Source: Desulfovibrio sp.
GTDB lineage: Bacteria > Desulfobacterota > Desulfovibrionia > Desulfovibrionales > Desulfovibrionaceae
Assembly (NCBI GenBank): GCA_031276785.1
Contig: JAISMK010000069.1
Location: 1-44,333 of the forward strand
Direction of reading: 5' to 3'
Length of the DNA stretch: 44,333 nt
Shown: positions 2,240 through 43,831 of the stretch, piece after piece
How the letters are laid out: every line of letters begins with the position of its first letter
Numbering within the stretch: position 1 is the first letter of the stretch
The notes under the pieces: model-generated
Seen by the model: only the letters and a program-made list of their open reading frames with translations
The model's database searches: none
Told to the model about the DNA's origin: nothing
Position numbers and translations under genes: made by a program

Positions 2240-2365
2240 TAGAGCATTTTTCGCTTGAAATGCTTGCTTAACGGCGGGCAAAGCCCGCCTACAAGCATCT
2301 CGCGGCAAGGATTTACGAGCAAATCCTTGCAGAGCAGTCCAACTTTGAAAAGTTAAACTGCTCTA
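2240..2365 (+). repeat. Four-hairpin TAGAGC/GCTCTA element, copy 1
   Basis: This 126-bp intergenic element runs from TAGAGC to GCTCTA. It contains four consecutive inverted repeats: GCATTT/AAATGC, GGCGGGC/GCCCGCC, GCAAGGATTT/AAATCCTTGC and AGAGCAGT/ACTGCTCT, the last with an inner AACTT/AAGTT. The same element recurs at 4758-4884 (opposite orientation), 20792-20918 and 29060-29186. It lies between lpxI and the thiamin genes and contains no ORF. As RNA it would fold into a hairpin chain, so it may act as a transcript end or RNA-stability element; that is inference. Confidence 0.88.
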
Positions 2366-4737: not shown

Positions 4738-4758
4738 AAATTGCCTGCCGCAATTTTT
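4736..4758 (+). terminator. Probable terminator after thiH
   Basis: A perfect inverted repeat, AAAAATTGC / GCAATTTTT with a 5-nt CTGCC loop, begins within the thiH stop codon. The right arm ends in five T residues, so it could terminate on the plus strand. A related sequence occurs reversed near 18998-19033 and degenerate at 32805-32850, so the hairpin is part of a small repeated cassette. Confidence 0.6.
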
Positions 4759-4884
4759 AGAGCGGTTCAACTTTGAAAAAGTTGGACCGCCCGGCAAGGA
4801 TTTGCCTGCCAATACTTGCCGCGAGATGGTTGCAGGCGGGCTTTGCCCGCCGTCAAGCAGGCATTTCAAGCGTAAAATGTTCTA
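4758..4884 (-). repeat. Four-hairpin TAGAGC/GCTCTA element, copy 2 (inverted)
   Basis: This is the same element as at 2240-2365 in the opposite orientation. It begins TAGAGCGGTTCAACTTTG and ends with ATGTTCTA. The GGCGGGC/GCCCGCC hairpin is intact as GGCGGGCTTTGCCCGCC; the GCAAGGATTT hairpin has changes in one arm. It separates thiH from thiE and begins at the last base of the thiH terminator hairpin. Confidence 0.85.
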
Positions 4885-7016: not shown

Positions 7017-7128
7017 AGGGCAGTTTCACTTTGAAATTGCCCTGGCGGCGAAAGAGCTGAGCGCCGCCGCCCGCTGCGGAGGCGTAAGCGCAATTTATTT
7101 GCGCTGTTAAGCGCCTGAGCGGGCCCTG
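7017..7128 (+). repeat. Degenerate type-B repeat element
   Basis: The segment starts GGGCAGTTTCACTTTGAAAT and contains GCCGCCGCCCGCTGCGGAGG and GTAAGCGCAATTTATTTGCG. The same blocks occur, diverged, at 18671-18822 (inverted) and 25898-26018. It fills much of the 420-bp gap between rpmB and the next membrane protein. The rest of that gap, to 7326, shows no gene; it ends with AAAGTTAAAATGCTCTA, which resembles the right end of the TAGAGC elements. Confidence 0.6.
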
Positions 7129-7326
7129 GCCAGAGAAAGTAATCCCATTTTCAAGCTTGCCCAAGGATTAAAGGCGTAAAATTTGTCCTCTCGGCAAGCG
7201 TCTTCGGCAAGTTCTCCTCCCGTTGGCCAAAAGGGTGGTGGATTCTGGAATACCTTCCTTATGGACGTCCATACCTGCATAGAGTATCTTTCCCTTCGGC
7301 CTGTCCTCATAAAGTTAAAATGCTCT

Positions 7327-18670: not shown

Positions 18671-18822
18671 TAGAGCGTTTCTACTTTGATATTGCGCATC
18701 ACAGTTTCTCCTGATCCGCGTCCGCTCCGGCGCTTAACAGCGCAAGTAAATTGCGCTTACGCCTTCGCGGCGGGCGTCCGCACACGCGGCCGCCAGAGCA
18801 AATTCATCCTGAAATTGCTCTA
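18671..18822 (-). repeat. Type-B element bounded by TAGAGC/GCTCTA
   Basis: The 152-bp segment starts TAGAGCGTTTC and ends TGAAATTGCTCTA. It contains GCGCTTAACAGCGC and AAATTGCGCTTACGCC, the inverse of the blocks at 7017-7128, followed by a GC-rich stretch (GCGGCGGGCGTCCG). It differs from the four-hairpin form inside but has the same ends. The next 230 bp to the TPR gene contain no recognised gene; 18998-19033 is an inverted relative of the thiH terminator cassette. Confidence 0.6.
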
Positions 18823-19053: not shown

Positions 19054-19668
19054 ATGCACCCTCTCTTTCCCCTCCGCCTCGCCCCGCTGATTTTATGTTT
19101 ATTGTCCGTTCCGGCGGGCTGCGGCGGGCGGGAGCCGCAGCCCGCGGCGCCCAACCCCATGGGACTGTCCGGCGCCTTTCTCCCCGCAGCGGAAACCGCC
19201 TATTCCCAGGCCAGGGTTCTGTGGCGCTCCCAGCAGACAACCGCAGCCACGGCGGCAGAAGTCTGCTCCGATCCTCTCCGGGCCATCGCCCTGCTGAACA
19301 AAGCTCTCGCTCTGGAGCCCGAATACGCGGAGGCATATATCCGGCGAGGCCTGGCCAAAAGCGAACTGGGACAATTCGAGGCCGCCTTCGACGATGCCTC
19401 CGCCGCCCTGCGACTGCGGCCCGAGCCAGCGTATTACGCCCAACGCGCCCTGATTTCCATGAGAGCAGGGCAATACGATGCCGCGCGCCTGGATTTGGAA
19501 TACTCCATACAAAGGGACGACTCCCTGAGCCTGTCCTGGGCCTTGCGGGGGATGTTGAACCTTATGGAAAACCGCGCCGCCGAGGCTTGCCGGGATTTCT
19601 CCCGGGCTTGTTCCAATGGGGACTGCTCGCGGCTGGATGCGGCCCGCCAGGAACAGATCTGCCCCTGA
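19054..19668 (+). CDS. TPR-repeat lipoprotein
   Basis: The 204-residue protein begins with a hydrophobic signal (LRLAPLILCLLSVPAGC) ending in a probable lipidated cysteine, although Pro at -3 is unusual for a lipobox. It then shows at least two TPR-like helical pairs: AIALLNKALALEPEYAEAYI, ELGQFEAAFDDASAALRLRP and AGQYDAARLDLEYSI. TPR lipoproteins act as scaffolds in envelope complexes; no specific partner is evident. I chose ATG 19054 because it places the signal peptide at the N-terminus; a TTG at 19006 lies inside repeat-derived sequence. The HlyD-type gene follows 25 bp later. Confidence 0.75.
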   Translation: MHPLFPLRLAPLILCLLSVPAGCGGREPQPAAPNPMGLSGAFLPAAETAYSQARVLWRSQQTTAATAAEVCSDPLRAIALLNKALALEPEYAEAYIRRGLAKSELGQFEAAFDDASAALRLRPEPAYYAQRALISMRAGQYDAARLDLEYSIQRDDSLSLSWALRGMLNLMENRAAEACRDFSRACSNGDCSRLDAARQEQICP

Positions 19669-19693
19669 ACACTCTTGCCCTGCGAGCAACTCC

Positions 19694-20794
19694 ATGAAGC
19701 CATCCCTGCCGAAACCGCCCCCTTCCCTTCCTTATCCGGGTAAAATTCTTGCGGCCGCCGGCATCCTCCTTCTGGCCGGGGCCGTTCTGTACTGGCTGCA
19801 TGCCGACCAGATCAGCCTTACGGGCCAGGTCTCCGGCGCGGCTATCGCCCTGGGGCCGGCTATCGCGGGGGTTGTGGACCAAATACCCGCGGAAGCGGGC
19901 CAAGCCGTGCGCGCGGGGGAACCTATGCTACATCTTAAAGATGACGCGCTACGGGAAACCCTGGCCTGGGAACGGCAAACTCTGGACCGGCTGGAAGCGG
20001 ACCTGCCGCCGGCCTTGCGCTCTTCCCTTGCCAGGGCCACGCCAGGCCTGGAACAGAGACTCGCCCATGGCCGGCAGGCTGAGGAAAAAGCTCTGAGCCT
20101 TGTGGGAGAAGCCTCCGCGGCGGCGGCAGGCGCGGCCGTGGCTGCGCGCCGGGCCTCCATCCTGCGGGCGGAGGGCAAAATCACGGAACAGGCCTGCCTG
20201 GAGGCGCAACTCGCCCACGCCCGAGCCCAAAAAACCCTGGAAGAAATCCGGGCGGAATACGAAAACCTGAGTCTGGCCAGGGCGGCAGTTTCCGCGGAAC
20301 TGCGCGAGCTGCGGGATATGACCAGGAATTACGGCCTGAATCTGCAAAATTATGAAGAACAGCGGGACAGAACGCGGGCTGCGGAAGAAACCGCGGAGGC
20401 GGCCCTACTGCGGGCTCCGGAGGACGGCATTGTGGCGGCGGTCACGGCCCGGACGGGGGACTCCCTGCAAGCTGGACAAACGGCCCTTTATTTCCTGCCT
20501 CTTACCGCCTCTCCGGCGGTAATCGCCACCGTACCCTCGGAGATCGCAGCCCATCTCGCCCCGGGCCAGGAATGCCGCCTGAGCATAGCCTCCCTGCCCT
20601 CTGCCCTGAAAGGCGCCATAGACTCCCTTGACCCGCTTCCCCCCGCTGAAGAAACACAGACGGAAGCGCTGCCGGCGCAAAACGTCCGGGTCAGCATCCG
20701 CATCCACCCGGAAGAAGGACCAGAAGGGACGGACGTCCGCCTGCCGCCCTTGATGAACGGCGCGACGGCGGTTATTACTATTTATCTGCGCTAG
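19694..20794 (+). CDS. HlyD/EmrA-type membrane fusion protein
   Basis: The 366-residue protein has one N-terminal membrane anchor (ILAAAGILLLAGAVLYWLHA). A biotinyl-lipoyl-like half domain follows (GPAIAGVVDQIPAEAGQAVRAGEPMLHL), then a long Ala/Glu-rich coiled-coil hairpin (~90-250) and the second half (LLRAPEDGIVAAVTARTGDSLQAGQTALYFL). Such adaptors bridge inner-membrane exporters to an outer-membrane channel, but no exporter or TolC-type gene is adjacent. The ATG at 19694 was chosen because it leaves a short polar N-terminus before the anchor. The TAG stop is the first three bases of a TAGAGC repeat element. Confidence 0.85.
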   Translation: MKPSLPKPPPSLPYPGKILAAAGILLLAGAVLYWLHADQISLTGQVSGAAIALGPAIAGVVDQIPAEAGQAVRAGEPMLHLKDDALRETLAWERQTLDRLEADLPPALRSSLARATPGLEQRLAHGRQAEEKALSLVGEASAAAAGAAVAARRASILRAEGKITEQACLEAQLAHARAQKTLEEIRAEYENLSLARAAVSAELRELRDMTRNYGLNLQNYEEQRDRTRAAEETAEAALLRAPEDGIVAAVTARTGDSLQAGQTALYFLPLTASPAVIATVPSEIAAHLAPGQECRLSIASLPSALKGAIDSLDPLPPAEETQTEALPAQNVRVSIRIHPEEGPEGTDVRLPPLMNGATAVITIYLR

Positions 20795-20918
20795 AGCAGT
20801 TTAACTTTGAAAAAATTGGACTGCTCTGCAAGGATTTGCCTGCGAATCCTTGCCGTGAGATGGTTGCAGGCGAGCTTTGCTCGCCGTTAAGCAACTATCT
20901 CAAAGAGGAATTGATCTA
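20792..20918 (+). repeat. Four-hairpin TAGAGC/GCTCTA element, copy 3
   Basis: The element starts at the stop codon of the HlyD-type gene (TAG, 20792-20794) and ends GATCTA. Hairpins AGAGCAGT/ACTGCTCT and the GCAAGGATTT family are present; GGCGGGC/GCCCGCC has become GGCGAGC/GCTCGCC with the pairing preserved by matched changes in both arms, which suggests the hairpin is maintained as structure. The last arm is degenerate. Confidence 0.82.
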
Positions 20919-23693: not shown

Positions 23694-24116
23694 TTATTCA
23701 GCCTGACCATCGCCGGAGTATCGCGCCCCATCTTCCGACTTGGGGTTATATTTCCGCACCCGGATGCGTTTGCCTTCCGAATTTCTTGCCACATCAAAGC
23801 CAAGTTTGCCGACAAGTTTGTGAATTGTCACCAGAGAACATTGTTTATGAAAATGCTCTTTGATGTCCGCCAAGGTTATCCCGGCATTATTTTGTAACAA
23901 TTCAACAAGTTGATCTACTTCCTCCTGGGAAAAAACAGAGGATCTGTGGCCCCGGGGGCGCGGAGAAAGACGATTTTCCCGCTCATAGGCCCGGATCCAG
24001 TTGCTGACGCTGGCAAGGGTATAGCCGGATATTTCAGAAAGTTTTTTTCTGCCGGCCGTGCCTGAAAGGTATGCCTTGACAACAAGACTGCGTATTTCTT
24101 CGCTGGCGATTTTCAT
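23694..24116 (-). CDS. IS630-type transposase HTH protein (OrfA-like)
   Basis: The 140-residue protein from ATG 24116 begins MKIASEEIRSLVVKAYLSGT and contains two helix-turn-helix units typical of IS630 OrfA (LSEISGYTLASVSNWIRAYE; GITLADIKEHFHKQCSLVTIHKLVGKLGF). The catalytic OrfB with its DDE triad is absent: after the stop at 23694 comes priA. The frame is intact, so it is either a recent IS fragment or a stand-alone DNA-binding protein. An upstream extension to 24266 is unlikely. Confidence 0.7.
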   Translation of the reverse strand: MKIASEEIRSLVVKAYLSGTAGRKKLSEISGYTLASVSNWIRAYERENRLSPRPRGHRSSVFSQEEVDQLVELLQNNAGITLADIKEHFHKQCSLVTIHKLVGKLGFDVARNSEGKRIRVRKYNPKSEDGARYSGDGQAE

Positions 24117-24266
24117 ACTCTCAAGTTTAAGCGGAATTTCAAAAAATGTCAATCGTAAAATTTCCGGCCCTGAAAAATCGCAAAAACTGCCGCCGCCGCG
24201 CAACTCCTTTGAGGTCTCCGTCAAGCGGCGCCGCCAGCAAAGAGAGGAAAATGATTGAAAGTTCAA

Positions 24267-24521: not shown

Positions 24522-24629
24522 TCAAATGTTTTCGCTTGCCGCATGGCCGAGCGATTCCGCTTCCCGCTTGCCCGTCCTCCCATCAACCGAAAGGTTATGG
24601 TGTGCCCATTGCTCATTGGTGATGTCCAT
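24522..24629 (-). pseudogene. IS5-like transposase N-terminal remnant
   Basis: A minus-strand ATG opens a 35-residue frame beginning MDITNEQWAHHNLSVDGRTG, resembling the start of IS5-family transposases (MDITDEQWA...GRP/GRT). It stops after 35 codons and nothing further is recognisable. The match is short, so this is tentative. Confidence 0.35.
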
Positions 24630-24738
24630 TCCCCATTCGTGCGGGAAACAGCCTCAAAAGTCTAGATATTTTCTAAATTCCAATCTTTTTGATTATGAGA
24701 TGGCTTCTATCTAAGGCATTTTTAACCTGGAATTGGAA

Positions 24739-25854: not shown

Positions 25855-25897
25855 ATTATGGCCGACCTTGGAGCATTTTCAAGGTGAAGTCGCCTCA

Positions 25898-26018
25898 GGG
25901 CAATTTTATTTTAAAATTGCTCTGGCTGTCGCACGGGCGGCCGCCCGCCGCGAAGGGGTAAGCGCAATTTATTCGCGCTGTTAGAGTATTCCAACTTTTT
26001 CAAAGTCAAACTGCTCTA
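25898..26018 (+). repeat. Composite type-B plus short TAGAG/GCTCTA element
   Basis: The left part (GGGCAATTTTATTTTAAAAT, then GTAAGCGCAATTTATTCGCG) is a type-B copy. The right part, 25982-26018, is a short hairpin element (TAGAGTATTCCAAC ... CTGCTCTA). The last three bases, read on the minus strand, are the TAG stop of the DapF-like gene. Confidence 0.65.
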
Positions 26019-26954
26019 AGGGATATGGGCCAGGCCCTCGGCCACCAGGCCGACCCGGCCGGAAACCCAGGCCTGGGAGGGAAAGATCGCCGCTCCCCTG
26101 GTCCGGGCGTCCGCCGCAGGTTCAGAGAAAAGAGTCACCTTCAGAGTTTCTCCGCTGGGCTGCACAATGGCCAGCGGGGAACCGGGGTCCGCCTGGGTGG
26201 CCGCGTGCAGCAGGGCCATGGCCAGGGAGGCGGAGCCGCAGGCAGTTTCCAGGTGTTCCGAGGCGGTAGCCTTGACCTCCACAGCGGGGGTGATGTGGTA
26301 GGCGCCGTCCCGGCATTCATACCAGACAACGCCGGAGGCCGGGGCGTTGGCAATGCCGGCCTGCTGCCGCAGATCAGCGCTGCCGGCCCTCCAGTTCCGG
26401 GGTAGGGGGCGGATGGCGGCGTCCACCAGCAGGTGGCAGATGCCGGGCATATGGACAAGGTGGACCCCCGGCTCCACGGGAAGAATCCGGGTACTCCCGG
26501 CGCCGCAGGCCATGCGGGCCGCGCAGAAAAGCCTGGGGTCCGGCAGGGGGGGAAGGAGGGCGTCCGGGGGGCTGTTTTCAGGACTGAGGGACAGGGCCTC
26601 CAGCAGGGCGTCCTCCCGGGCGCAAGCCAGGATGTCCAGCGGCGCAAGGGCGCCGGAAACGGTTATCCGCCCGCCGCCACATCCCTTTGTCCCCACGGGG
26701 CGCAACAGTCCCGCTCGGGCCAGGAGCAGGGCGGCGGAGCGGACGGCATTGACGCAGCATTCCCCGCCCATCATCTGGAGGTGGGGAACTGGCCTGCGCA
26801 TGAACAGTTCCCCCACCTGCTCGGCCCCCAGATGCAGCGGCGACATCAGGACGGCCGAGGCGCGGGCCAGTTCCTCCTGCCCCAGCCCGCAGGCCAGCAG
26901 AATGATGGTGGTGTTTCCTCCGGGATGGAGCTTGGCGAAGCTAAGGGTGGGCAT
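26016..26954 (-). CDS. DapF-fold epimerase/racemase-like protein
   Basis: The 312-residue protein resembles the diaminopimelate-epimerase fold. LSFAKLHPGGNTTIILLA matches the N-terminal FxKMxGxGN block, GGECCVNAVRSAA carries one catalytic cysteine, and ETACGSASLAMALL carries the second. It diverges too far from DapF (GNGARC, ACGTG) to be the lysine-pathway enzyme with confidence. CntK-type histidine racemases of opine metallophore synthesis are similarly divergent, but no nicotianamine-synthase-like or opine dehydrogenase gene is adjacent. GGGAG precedes ATG 26954. The TAG stop is contributed by a repeat end. Substrate unknown. Confidence 0.7.
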   Translation of the reverse strand: MPTLSFAKLHPGGNTTIILLACGLGQEELARASAVLMSPLHLGAEQVGELFMRRPVPHLQMMGGECCVNAVRSAALLLARAGLLRPVGTKGCGGGRITVSGALAPLDILACAREDALLEALSLSPENSPPDALLPPLPDPRLFCAARMACGAGSTRILPVEPGVHLVHMPGICHLLVDAAIRPLPRNWRAGSADLRQQAGIANAPASGVVWYECRDGAYHITPAVEVKATASEHLETACGSASLAMALLHAATQADPGSPLAIVQPSGETLKVTLFSEPAADARTRGAAIFPSQAWVSGRVGLVAEGLAHIP

Positions 26955-29059: not shown

Positions 29060-29186
29060 TAGAGCATTTTACGCTTGAAATGCTTGCTTAACGGCGGGCA
29101 AAGCCCGCCTGCAACCATCTCGCGGCAAGGATTCGCAGGCAAATCCTTGCAGAGCAGTTTAACTTTTTCAAAGTTAAACTGCTCTA
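29060..29186 (+). repeat. Four-hairpin TAGAGC/GCTCTA element, copy 4
   Basis: The 127-bp element is nearly identical to 2240-2365 and in the same orientation. It has intact TAGAGC and GCTCTA ends, GCATTTT/AAATGC, GGCGGGC/GCCCGCC and AGAGCAGTTTAACTT/AAGTTAAACTGCTCT hairpins. The third hairpin differs at a few loop positions. It lies between rny and the probable 6S RNA. Confidence 0.88.
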
Positions 29187-29244: not shown

Positions 29245-29261
29245 ACAGAGAAAAAGCGTTG

Positions 29262-29445
29262 ATACCCCCGGGTGTGCCGTGCGGCTGCCCTCCCGCAGGA
29301 CCTATTACGCCTACGGTGGGAACATGTTAACGAACTTCAGGCTTCTTGAACAAGGCAAGCATGCACACCGTGTCGTTGGCAGTTCCCGTATGTTATGCTT
29401 GTGAGGCCAGCGACGACAGCCGTCACGCGCGCCCCAGGGATTTTA
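29262..29445 (-). ncRNA. ssrS: Probable 6S RNA
   Basis: 6S RNA mimics an open promoter and binds sigma-70 RNA polymerase. The minus strand from about 29445 starts ATCCCTGGGGCG. Its 5' side (GCGTGACGGCTG) can pair with CAGCCGCACGG on the 3' side, closing a long hairpin of about 183 nt with an unpaired middle, the 6S size and shape. It lies directly downstream of zapA, the classic ssrS position. I cannot run a covariance model, so the exact ends and the call are tentative. Confidence 0.55.
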
Positions 29446-33271: not shown

Positions 33272-33305
33272 TAGAGCAGTTTAACTTTGAAAAAGTTGGA
33301 CTGCT
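33272..33305 (+). repeat. Short TAGAGC hairpin element, right end lost
   Basis: TAGAGCAGTTTAACTTTG pairs with AAAGTTGGACTGCT. The terminal CTA of the right end is missing. It separates the DUF2325 gene from cluster 2. Confidence 0.7.
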
Positions 33306-35515: not shown

Positions 35516-36046
35516 ATGTTCTCTCCAAGTATTCTTGAAGCCGCCCGGCAGGTGGTGCAGAGCGCCAAAGGCGCTTCTCTGCGCCTGGGCACGGTGGAAA
35601 CCGTTACCGCGGGCCTGGTCGCGGCGGCGGTCGCCAGCGTCCCCGGCGCGTCCGATGTTCTGGAGCGGGGGTTCATTTTGTACGGATATGGAGCGAAATC
35701 CGCCGGTCTGGGCATACCCGCGGATCTGGCCGGCCGGTATGGGGCTGTCAGCGCGGAAATCACAAGCGCTCTGGCCGCCGCTTTTTTCACCAGGGGCGAG
35801 GCGGATCTCAGCCTTGCCGTAACCGGCTACGCGGGGCCTGGAGGAGGCGCTCCGGACAAGCCGGTGGGGACCGTTTTCATAGCCGCCTGCCGGCGGTGCG
35901 GCACGCCGGTTGTGGAGAGACATCTGTTCGGGGGAGATCGGGACGATGTTCGCGCTCAGGCTGTGGAAAGCTCTCTGCATCTTGTGCTGTCCTTGCTGCG
36001 CAAGGCAAAATTTTCGCATGGCGGAGTGGAGACGGTAAATGGCTGA
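35516..36046 (+). CDS. CinA/PncC C-terminal domain amidohydrolase-like protein
   Basis: PncC/CinA proteins hydrolyse the amide of nicotinamide mononucleotide. The 176-residue stand-alone domain has VASVPGASDVLERGFILYGYGAKSAGLGI, LAVTGYAGPGGGAPDKPVGTVFIA and GDRDDVRAQAV, all typical. The catalytic motif ESCTGG is replaced by ETVTAG (28-33), so the expected catalytic serine is T29; Y56 and K61 are retained. This suggests altered activity or substrate. AGGGGGA precedes ATG 35516. The stop overlaps the amidohydrolase start. Confidence 0.82.
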   Translation: MFSPSILEAARQVVQSAKGASLRLGTVETVTAGLVAAAVASVPGASDVLERGFILYGYGAKSAGLGIPADLAGRYGAVSAEITSALAAAFFTRGEADLSLAVTGYAGPGGGAPDKPVGTVFIAACRRCGTPVVERHLFGGDRDDVRAQAVESSLHLVLSLLRKAKFSHGGVETVNG

Positions 36047-37367
36047 TCTTTTCATAGCCTCGCAGCTTATCCGGGGTGTCGGAGACGAGCCGCTTGGCGG
36101 TTCCGTGGGCATAAGGGTGGAGCAAGGGCGCATAGCATTCGCCGGGCCGCTGACAAGCATGAGGCGGGAACCGCGGGTCAAGGTTGTGGAAATGGAAGGA
36201 TACACCCTTTTGCCCGGCATCATAGACGCGCACCTCCACGCAACGTGGCGCGCCCGCGACGTGCGGCGCCAACTTCAGACGACATCATCGTACAGTATAA
36301 TAAAATCATTGAGCATTCTCAAGGAGACCCTCTTTGCGGGCGTGACCTCGGCGCGCGACATGGGCGGAGCGGACGCCGGCTTCCGCTTGGCGCTGCAAGA
36401 GGGGATCATTCCTGGTCCGCGCCTTTTTGTTTCCATTCTGATGATCTCTCCGACCGGAGGCCATGGCGACCATTTTTTCCCCTCCGGCGTCCGGCTGGCG
36501 AAGCGTCCCTGGCTTCCCTCCAACATCGCGGACGGGGTGGACGGCGTCCGCAGGCTGGTGCGGGAAACGCTGTCTCTTGGTGCGGATTTCATCAAACTCT
36601 GCGCCAGCGGGGGTATAACTTCCGCCGGCGATGATTTTGAGGACGAGCAGTTCAGCGTTGAAGAAATGGCCGTCGCCGTGCGGGAGGCGGCCGGACGCAA
36701 AAAACATGTGGCCGCCCACGCGGAAAATGCCGCGTCCGTCCGCAACGCCCTGGCCGCCGGAGTCCATTCCATAGAACACGGCTGGTTCATGGATGAGGAA
36801 AGCGTGGACAGCATGGTCCGCCGGAAGACCTGGTGGGTACCCACTTTGGCTCTTGTGGACCAGAGCCTGAAGTTCCGGGCCAAGAACGCGCAATGGTCGC
36901 AGGCTCAGCTTGCCGACGAGGCGAAGGCGGAGGTCCGCATCCTGGCGCGCCAGAAAGAGAGCATCCCATTATGGCGCGAGGCCATCCGCCGGGGGGTGCG
37001 CATAGCCTTTGGCACCGACCAGTCGCACCGCCTGCTGACGGGCCGGAATTTGGTCGAGTTGGAATATATGGTTGACTGGCTGGGGATGTCGCCTTTGCAG
37101 GCCGTCAACTCCGCTACGGGTGAGGCGGCCCGGTGCATAGGAGTAAGCGACATCGGAGTGCTGGAGGAGGGCAGACGCGCGGATTTTATAGCGGTGCAAG
37201 GGGATCCGTTGCGGGATATCCGCATCCTTGGAGATCCGGAGAATGTCAGACTCGTGGTTAAGGACGGCGTGGTGGTGAAAAACACCCTCGCCGCCGCGCA
37301 GCGCCAAAGCGCAGGGCCGGGATTTGAAGACGAATCCTTGCCGGGAAGTTCAATTTTTCCAAGTTGA
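36039..37367 (+). CDS. Metal-dependent amidohydrolase (imidazolonepropionase/prolidase-like)
   Basis: The 442-residue protein has the amidohydrolase-superfamily ligand set. DAHLHATW gives H65 and H67, ADFIKLCASGG gives K186 (possible carboxylated lysine), HVAAHAEN gives H227, SIEHG gives H247 and AFGTDQSH gives the catalytic D327. The C-terminal composite domain (GVLEEGRRADFIAVQGDPLRDI) is also typical. Relatives hydrolyse cyclic amides, Xaa-Pro dipeptides or N-acyl groups. It overlaps the CinA-like gene by 8 bp. The last residues (SSIFPS) are encoded by a repeat-like inverted sequence (GTTCAA/TTGAAC, 37347-37368). Confidence 0.88.
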   Translation: MADLFIASQLIRGVGDEPLGGSVGIRVEQGRIAFAGPLTSMRREPRVKVVEMEGYTLLPGIIDAHLHATWRARDVRRQLQTTSSYSIIKSLSILKETLFAGVTSARDMGGADAGFRLALQEGIIPGPRLFVSILMISPTGGHGDHFFPSGVRLAKRPWLPSNIADGVDGVRRLVRETLSLGADFIKLCASGGITSAGDDFEDEQFSVEEMAVAVREAAGRKKHVAAHAENAASVRNALAAGVHSIEHGWFMDEESVDSMVRRKTWWVPTLALVDQSLKFRAKNAQWSQAQLADEAKAEVRILARQKESIPLWREAIRRGVRIAFGTDQSHRLLTGRNLVELEYMVDWLGMSPLQAVNSATGEAARCIGVSDIGVLEEGRRADFIAVQGDPLRDIRILGDPENVRLVVKDGVVVKNTLAAAQRQSAGPGFEDESLPGSSIFPS

Positions 37368-37407
37368 ACGGCCCTGAAATTTGAATTGTCTTTGGAGGAT
37401 ACCCATA

Positions 37408-38306: not shown

Positions 38307-38342
38307 TAGAGTGGTTCAACTTTTAAAAGTTAAACTGCTCTA
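38307..38342 (+). repeat. Short TAGAG/GCTCTA hairpin element
   Basis: TAGAGTGGTTCAACTTTTAA and AAAGTTAAACTGCTCTA pair as a hairpin. The left T is shared with another GCTCTA end (TGAAATTGCTCTA) belonging to a remnant that carries the nadC-like stop. It separates the enzyme genes from the transporter genes. Confidence 0.7.
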
Positions 38343-42155: not shown

Positions 42156-42872
42156 ATGCTTGAAGTGCGCGAAGTCCATGCCGGCTATGGAAAGACGGAG
42201 GTTTTGCGCGGTGTTTCCCTGAGTGTAAAAGAAGGGAGCATCGTGGCCCTTGTCGGCGCTAACGGCGCCGGCAAAACCACCATTATGGCGGCCATTACCG
42301 GGCATGTTCCCGTCAGTTCGGGGCAAATCCGTTTTCAGGGCGAAAATATCGCGGGGATCCCCGCCCATCAGGTGGTGGTCAGGGGAATCAGCCTTGTGCC
42401 GGAAGGACGGCAGGTGGTGTCGCCCTTGAGTGTTGAGGAAAACCTGTTTTTGGGCGCGCATACCCGGGGCAAAAAGGAGGCCGCGGAGAGCCTTGACAGG
42501 GTTTTTTCCTGGTTTCCCCGTCTCCGTGAGCGGCGCGCGCAGAAATCCGGCTCCCTGTCCGGAGGGGAACAGCAAATGCTGGCCATAGGCCGCGCCATGA
42601 TGGCGAAGCCGAAACTTCTGTTGCTGGATGAGCCTTCCATGGGGTTGGCGCCCCTGGTGGTATCAGAGGTTTTCCGCTTTATCCGGAAGCTGAACGAGGA
42701 AGGAACAACGGTCTTTCTCGGGGAGCAAAACGCAAGAAAAGCGCTGGGCATGGCGGAATACGCCTATGTGCTGGAAGACGGGGAGCTGATTATGGAAGGT
42801 CCGGCCCGGCGGTTGCTCTCGTCTGAGCAGGTTGTGGAAGCCTACCTCGGCGGCGCCGGCGACGGGATTTAG
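42156..42872 (+). CDS. livF: LIV-type ABC ATPase LivF (cluster 2)
   Basis: The 238-residue ATPase has Walker A GANGAGKTTIMAAITG, VPEGRQVVSPLSVEENLFLG, signature LSGGEQQMLAIGRAMMAKP and Walker B LLLLDEPSMGLAP. The usual LLVEQNA switch reads VFLGEQNA, with Gly for the common Val. It is the last gene of cluster 2. Its TAG stop is the left end of a 29-bp TAGAGC element. Confidence 0.94.
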   Translation: MLEVREVHAGYGKTEVLRGVSLSVKEGSIVALVGANGAGKTTIMAAITGHVPVSSGQIRFQGENIAGIPAHQVVVRGISLVPEGRQVVSPLSVEENLFLGAHTRGKKEAAESLDRVFSWFPRLRERRAQKSGSLSGGEQQMLAIGRAMMAKPKLLLLDEPSMGLAPLVVSEVFRFIRKLNEEGTTVFLGEQNARKALGMAEYAYVLEDGELIMEGPARRLLSSEQVVEAYLGGAGDGI

Positions 42873-42898
42873 AGCAATTTCAAAGTGAAATTGTTCTA
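42870..42898. repeat. Minimal TAGAGC hairpin supplying both stops of a convergent pair
   Basis: The 29-bp palindrome begins TAGAGCAATTTCA and ends TGAAATTGTTCTA, with a 3-nt loop. Its left TAG is the stop of livF; its right CTA, read on the minus strand as TAG, is the stop of the NAD-binding epimerase-like gene. It could work as a bidirectional transcript end, though it lacks a T-run. Confidence 0.85.
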
Positions 42899-43831
42899 AT
42901 AGGCGCGGTTTCTGTCCAGGCGGCGGGCCATTTCGTTGGCGTAGCGGATGCCCAGGCGGTCGGCGTTTTCCCGGGCCCAGTCGGTGAGGTGGGTGGTTCC
43001 GGCGGGAAGGGCGCCGGGCACATGCAAGAGGCCGGCCATGAGGCCTCGGATTTCATCGCGGGTTACGAAAACGTCGCCCATCAGCTTGCCCACAAGCATG
43101 GAGGCCGGGTAGCCGAGCCAGAAAGGCAGGGGGAGAAAGAGGCGTTTGCGGCCGATAATCGCGCTCAGCCTCCGTAGCCATTCCCTGTAGGTGAAGTCCT
43201 CCGGCCCCAGAGCGGTTAGTGTGGCGTCCGCGCGCGAGCCGCCCTGTTCGCACAGCAGAGCGGCCAGATCGTCCACATAGATGGGCTGCATCCGGTAGGA
43301 GCCGTCGCCGAAGACGCCGATCACCGGCATGCGGCGCAATGTCCAGACAATGTTGTTGATGAGGACATCCTCCAGGCCGAAGATCACGGCCGGGCGGAGG
43401 ATGGCATGGGACATGCCGGATTCCCTTAAGGCCCGCTCCAGGCGCCCTTTGCCGCTGTAGTAGGGCAAAGGGGATCTCTCGTCGGCGTTGGCGACGCTGA
43501 CGTGAACCACGCGTTCCACTCCGGCGTCCTTGGCCGCCCGGAAGAGGGCCAGGGTATTGTCCTCGGCGTTGGCGTGAGTGAAGAGGTGGTGGGGGAAGCG
43601 CACCCAGTAGGTATTGTACAAAACTTGCACGTCCTGCAGGGCCTCGGCCAGGACGCCGGGCCTGTCGAAAGCCAGAGGGCGGACTTCCACGGCGTTGCTG
43701 AAGGGATGGGGGCGGCCGGGGGAATTGGTGAGAGTTACGACCTGCCGTCCGGCCTTGAGCAGGCGGGCGGCAAGGTACTTCCCGCTGAAGCCGAAGGCCC
43801 CGGTGACGGCGTGTCTGGCGCGCGCGCTCAT
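42896..43831 (-). CDS. NAD(P)-binding atypical SDR / NmrA-like protein
   Basis: The 311-residue protein begins AVTGAFGFSGKYLAARLLKAG, the TGxxGxxG nucleotide-binding motif of extended or atypical short-chain dehydrogenases. It has VVHVSVANADERSPLPYYSGKGRLERAL (YxxxK, with Y and K as YYSGK), SHAILRPAVIFGLEDVLINNI and MQPIYVDDLAALL. Members include nucleoside-diphosphate-sugar epimerases and complex I NDUFA9-like proteins; the substrate is not clear. It converges on livF and shares a repeat element for its stop. Confidence 0.85.
   Translation of the reverse strand: MSARARHAVTGAFGFSGKYLAARLLKAGRQVVTLTNSPGRPHPFSNAVEVRPLAFDRPGVLAEALQDVQVLYNTYWVRFPHHLFTHANAEDNTLALFRAAKDAGVERVVHVSVANADERSPLPYYSGKGRLERALRESGMSHAILRPAVIFGLEDVLINNIVWTLRRMPVIGVFGDGSYRMQPIYVDDLAALLCEQGGSRADATLTALGPEDFTYREWLRRLSAIIGRKRLFLPLPFWLGYPASMLVGKLMGDVFVTRDEIRGLMAGLLHVPGALPAGTTHLTDWARENADRLGIRYANEMARRLDRNRAY

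Follow-up and report, generated by a model that had tools for sequence, protein, structure and literature searches.

The window, by which we mean the whole 44,333-nucleotide stretch of DNA analysed here, is contig C106 of a Desulfovibrio-type MAG (2.02 Mb, 183 contigs, 87% complete). It carries dispersed copies of a hairpin-rich element together with shorter relatives, a transposase remnant and an empty target site:

2240..2365, + strand: full-length element copy 1, TAGAGC...GCTCTA (alignment); absent from the orthologous gap of genome G009
4758..4884, - strand: full-length element copy 2 (alignment); absent from the orthologous gap of G009
20792..20918, - strand: full-length element copy 3; ORF 19616..20794 takes its stop codon from the outer TAG (20792-20794, + strand)
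23694..24266, - strand: remnant of the OrfA (helix-turn-helix) half of an IS630-type transposase; tblastn 47% identity, E 1e-33, to the parent OrfA described below
24602..24705, - strand: paralogous empty target site of a full element that is filled at G000:C70:33684-33809
25983..26018, unstranded: mini element, a palindrome of 36-37 bp made from two IS-type ends; it supplies ORF 26016..26954 (-) with its TAG stop codon
29060..29186, + strand: full-length element copy 4 (alignment)
33272..33305, - strand: mini element with one end truncated
37315..37375, + strand: decayed remnant of H3-H4 that overlaps ORF 36039..37367 at its 3′ end
38307..38342, + strand: mini element, with one TA common with the palindrome on either side
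42870..42898, unstranded: 29-bp mini element whose ends are the TAG stops of convergent genes 42156..42872 (+) and 42896..43831 (-)

The four ~127-bp copies lie where the first-pass annotation had placed them. Their mean column identity is 86%, with the palindromes in the same order, and the core of hairpin H3 has 173 matches in this genome (at most 3 mismatches) against 0 for a reversed-pattern control. The copy at 20792 had been listed without inversion and is in fact inverted, like that at 4758. RNA folds of the element fall 3.9 to 8.8 sd below shuffles, and stable hairpins form on both strands. The shorter relatives had been said to keep only the last hairpin. This does not apply to 42870, which is a distinct palindrome of 29 bp bounded by the same ends; the relatives at 25983-26018, 38307-38342 and 42870-42898 are TA-ended palindromes of 29-37 bp, and that at 33272-33305 is truncated. 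The description of the family as only intergenic is close to correct, since 62 of 63 full copies lie outside predicted genes in 658 kb of this genome (a sample that is 88% coding, with genes from our own gene caller), save that positions 20792-20794 are themselves a gene's stop codon.

Several other features accompany the element. A 6S RNA (RF00013, 62.8 bits) lies at 29261-29443 (-), ~75 bp from the copy at 29060-29186. A second palindromic repeat family of ~110-150 bp, found in the window at 7020-7133, 18671-18822 and 25897-25983, has similar AGAGCAATTTCA-type ends and a AAGCGCAATTTATTTGCGCTGTTA core, and probably represents a further MITE form of the IS family described below. TA-flanked palindromes with ends GTACGCTGTAAC/GTTACAGCGTAC (L005, L061, L076 and L195, from this and sister genomes) are sometimes joined to the present element via one shared TA. 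In a sister genome, a tandem array (L046:6827-7020, G014:C7) repeats a ~51-bp H1-H2 unit that stems from the element.

The element is abundant and is found well beyond this genome. Contigs C1-C18 (232 kb), an unbiased set, contain 22 full copies, which extrapolates to ~190 per genome. It is present in all 15 genomes of the genus, in 32 of 149 sampled genomes and in 13 of 44 genera of the family. Where genomes sharing this core carry names, they are Desulfovibrio/Desulfovibrionales MAGs, and several of these are, as we take it from their isolate names, from termite guts. Full copies in G075, a member of another genus of the family, share 94% identity with those of this genome, which equals the similarity within this genome and suggests recent spread between genera. 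G075 yielded 288 first-look candidates for the element. No match was found in Rfam at the gathering threshold, in a collection of E. coli genomes (blastn) or in a plasmid collection.

The first-pass annotation also proposed four conserved hairpins under selection for structure. We aligned 82 copies from seven genomes and found both sides changed in 30 of the 45 pairs of the named structure, where shuffles gave 16.8 and slid controls never more than 20; the covariation score reached 0.178, and that of slid controls did not exceed 0.064. Paired changes uphold a conserved structure for H2, H3 and H4. They do not extend to H1 (GCATTT/AAATGC), which shows no covariation beyond shuffles in the copy alignment. 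The supported structure begins with the left end TAGAGCATTTTACGCTTGA. H2 is longer than first described, with an outer stem (AAATGCTTGC/GCAAGCATTT) that encloses GGCGGGC/GCCCGCC, the arms of H3 are GCAAGGATTTGC/GCAAATCCTTGC, and H4 is itself a palindrome composed of IS-type ends. The matched change reported in both arms of copy 3 is real (GGCGAGC/GCTCGCC). RNAalifold returned almost no consensus structure for the 82-row alignment, so that support for the structure comes from the counts of changed pairs and from single-sequence folds.

Such paired changes may reflect either selection on RNA or palindrome-maintaining DNA processes. We regard it as quite conceivable, though not the reading we favour, that template switching, hairpin-directed repair or subfamily recombination produced them in place of structural selection. 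The copies at 29060 and 4758 are mosaics in which a AAATGCTTGC-type left arm is combined with a GCAACCATCTC right arm, so that two versions of the H2 stem are mixed, and this argues for mismatch tolerance and recombination among copies. However, the H2 outer stem occurs across species in at least four different versions, each matched within itself (AAATGC/GCATTT, GAGATTG/CAATC, AAACAG/CTGTTT and GAGATAG/CTATCTC), which speaks against that reading.

To identify a parent element, IS630-type transposases were sought across the genus, followed by terminal repeats around each. A 998-bp IS in a sister species (G014:C41:1-998) has TAGAGCATTTTAACTTTGAA ends that are identical over 18-20 bp and surround orfA and orfB, with IS630 and DDE_3 matches. 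Other genera of the family carry this IS too, bounded by the same ends; the two ends agree at 19/20 (G022) and 20/20 (G039) positions, and related copies are found in G098, G109, G065 and G131. Compared with the parent IS end, those of the window's full copies are identical at 14-19 of 20 positions; the 127-bp element departs from it in its left end, at positions 13-15. A conserved A-run (TTTAAAAAAAACTCTG) at the overlap of orfA and orfB in several forms of the parent IS (L125, L143, L144 and L249) looks like a signal for programmed frameshifting. G098 contains 39 matches to the parent transposase, many of them at contig ends, and may represent an IS630 burst that is still active.

In the genome studied here we saw remnants and no intact parent IS, the MAG being 87% complete. 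These remnants include one on contig C169, whose left end (TAGAGTATTTTAACTTTCAAA) is sited at a predicted stop codon, and the window's 23694..24266 (-), which has HTH_32/HTH_28 matches and a partial transpos_IS630 match. Mobilisation in this genome may therefore lie in the past. Two IS630 fragments of this genome that were found first (L090 and L091) were rejected as parent, their ends being seemingly different (AGGGAATAAT).

Empty sites were sought by joining the flanks of candidate elements with one TA kept and comparing the product with the DNA of the sampled genomes. This yielded a single clean pair, which is exact: the filled site G000:C70:33684-33809 has TA on both sides of the element, whereas the empty site in the window (24602-24705, -) has one. 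The empty site reads GGAATT-TA-GAAAATATC, and the filled site TA-element-TA; more fully, ...GATTGGAATT-TA-GAAAATATCTA... becomes ...GATTGGAATT-TA[element]TA-GAAAATATCTA..., with the left flank identical at 30/30 positions. Most copies have TA at both ends. The base before the left-end TA is C or T in 82% of copies and that after the right-end TA is A or G in 87%, which is a preference for YTAR. This is consistent with IS630, cited in PMC2170065 (from Tenzen & Ohtsubo 1991) as preferring CTAG; the same source gives TA as the duplication made by ISY100. Two of the window's copies (2240 and 4758) are missing from orthologous gaps of G009, and in the closest genome cluster such gaps are too diverged between species for a duplication to be read. 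Counting the spacers of GCTC-n-GAGC junctions across the genome gave no usable excess of TA, and therefore the cases of neighbouring elements that share one TA are given as examples only.

The element and its relatives thus have terminal inverted repeats common with an autonomous IS (ends in G014, G022 and G039), a TA target-site duplication (one exact pair) and a short length without a transposase gene (29-37 and 127 bp). With high confidence we regard the repeats as non-autonomous transposons (MITEs) of the IS630/Tc1-mariner family, and this is the best explanation of the whole. The suggestion of a MITE mobilised in trans is supported, at the level of sequence, by the IS630 ends, the TA duplication and the transposase-bearing parent in a sister species. 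The same annotation had offered REP/BIME elements as an alternative, with a RAYT (REP-associated tyrosine transposase) to mobilise or maintain them. High copy number, palindromes and extragenic location would fit, as would one Y1_Tnp domain fragment in the genome. However, the search for a RAYT in the incomplete (87%) MAG found none beyond this fragment, which is the last part of the domain only, sits at a contig edge and is followed by a CACCGGCTTCAGCCGGTGG hairpin, like the end of an IS200/IS605 element; our element does not flank it. Moreover, the 127-bp unit has TAGAGC/GCTCTA ends in place of the GTAG/GTGG head of the REPs in PMC2817692, and both the TA duplication, which REPs do not make, and the IS630-type ends point elsewhere. 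We therefore consider the REP/BIME reading very improbable. Kinship with the ERIC/RU-1-type enterobacterial repeats, which are also 127 bp long and have a TA-type target, is scarcely credible, since a blastn comparison of the element with the E. coli genome collection gave no match.

The IS630-type MITE has a further property that the first-pass annotation missed. Both ends are TA|GAGC, so that TAG is read inward from either side. We examined 658 kb of this genome with 534 stops, using our own gene caller and no curated annotation; the contigs were partly picked for having copies, and absolute numbers thus lean upward. In this sample 25 of 63 full copies (40%) start exactly at a gene's stop codon, after three of the 28 flagged by script were dropped because their sequence was not an element end. 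The TAs of stop codons make up ~10% of non-coding TA sites, which gives P ~3e-10 for this count, and P is 4e-6 when YTAR sites only are considered. Seen from the genes, AGC follows the stop in 51 of 159 TAG codons against 11 of 375 TAA/TGA codons (P 7e-20). A looser signature recognises 77 of the 159 TAG stops as element ends, but arises after TAG at a chance rate of ~9% by our own estimate, and for this reason the strict count (TAG+AGC, 51/159) is also given. Among the unbiased contigs 58 of 191 stops are TAG, of which 18 are strict and 25 loose element ends. Roughly a third to half of the sampled TAG stops are thus made of element ends.

Four genes of the window, with ends at 20794 (+), 42872 (+), 26016 (-) and 42896 (-), use an element TAG as their stop, and the 29-bp element at 42870-42898 supplies two convergent genes at once. 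Of 27 comparisons between orthologues, 18 have C-termini no more than 3 residues apart, and in 12 these coincide exactly; most insertions therefore did not truncate proteins. Where an element sits at a stop codon, its far TA is mostly followed by A or G, but the share does not exceed that among all copies and was left out of the evidence.

Three readings of these sites may be entertained: the transposase prefers stops, only survivors are seen, or the host benefits. For the last, the elements would be retained as portable 3′-end cassettes, bringing a stop codon along with RNA hairpins that act on the upstream transcript as stabilisers or terminators. Such a role would fit the share of full copies exactly at stop codons, the lower number of copies in divergent gaps (P 0.017), the stable hairpins on both strands and the covariation. 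However, there is no T-tract terminator, the strand bias is only weak (51 to 32, P 0.048), one 29-bp mini serves two convergent genes equally, and survival alone would pile a TA-targeting transposon up at stop codons. We hence think a host function unlikely, and take survival bias together with target preference as the probable cause of the stop-codon positions.

For the IS630-type MITE we propose the following route. A DDE transposase from an IS with TAGAGCATTTTAACTTTGAA ends would recognise the ends of the 127-bp and 29-37-bp elements in trans, cut the element out and paste it into a TA, favouring a YTAR context; the duplication of TA would follow from this targeting. An element entering a TAA or TAG stop at its TA would rebuild an in-frame TAG at the same codon and leave the protein unchanged, so that such insertions would be tolerated because the ends read TAG, and the absence of elements from genes would be due to survival. 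In a GC-rich genome TAA and TAG stop codons form a sizeable share of the harmless TA sites. H2, H3 and H4 would probably fold within the 3′ UTR of the gene upstream, or in extruded DNA. As a tentative possibility only, and one that we think somewhat doubtful, the TAG-reading ends may be an adaptation of the transposon, for which stops serve as self-restoring safe harbours; gene ends would then be colonised genome-wide, stop usage reshaped and a hairpin 3′ end placed on about a seventh of genes, with possible regulatory use by the host.

The mechanism of mobility is ordinary, and the colonisation of stop codons is the surprising part; we found no earlier account of it in the limited open-access literature. 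These data tie a dispersed bacterial hairpin repeat to a transposase family through an end match, an empty site and a parent IS, which many such repeats lack. They also offer a concrete harmless route into gene ends, the transposon carrying the stop codon along. If this is general, TA-targeting elements with TAG ends would explain an excess of TAG stops and of post-gene hairpins elsewhere.

Among the closest known systems is RUP of Streptococcus pneumoniae, a 107-bp element for which IS630-Spn1 is the proposed mobiliser in the descriptions drawn on here (PMC2229807, PMC3049150). Like ours, it is a short MITE with the ends of an IS630-type IS, a TA target and about a hundred copies or more. In contrast, RUP is placed in or near IS elements with no reported functional motif, and occupation of stop codons does not appear in these same descriptions. 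ISY100 and other IS630/Tc1-mariner elements share a DDE transposase of the same family, the TA duplication and flanking TAs; the present system differs in being a Desulfovibrionaceae clade with TAGAGCATTTTAACTTT ends, in an orfA/orfB that appears to be frameshifted and in having several forms of MITE. Correia/NEMIS and ERIC/RU repeats are likewise hairpin-rich, TA-ended and MITE-like and often adjoin genes, but for the present element a parent transposase is identified; the E. coli collection separates it from ERIC/RU, and the comparison with Correia is by description. REP/BIME elements with RAYT are similarly abundant extragenic palindromes, yet belong to another transposase class with another end signature, whereas ours has a target duplication. 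The kind of element is known already, an IS630 MITE like RUP; the scale of its stop-codon use did not appear in the limited set of open-access papers searched.
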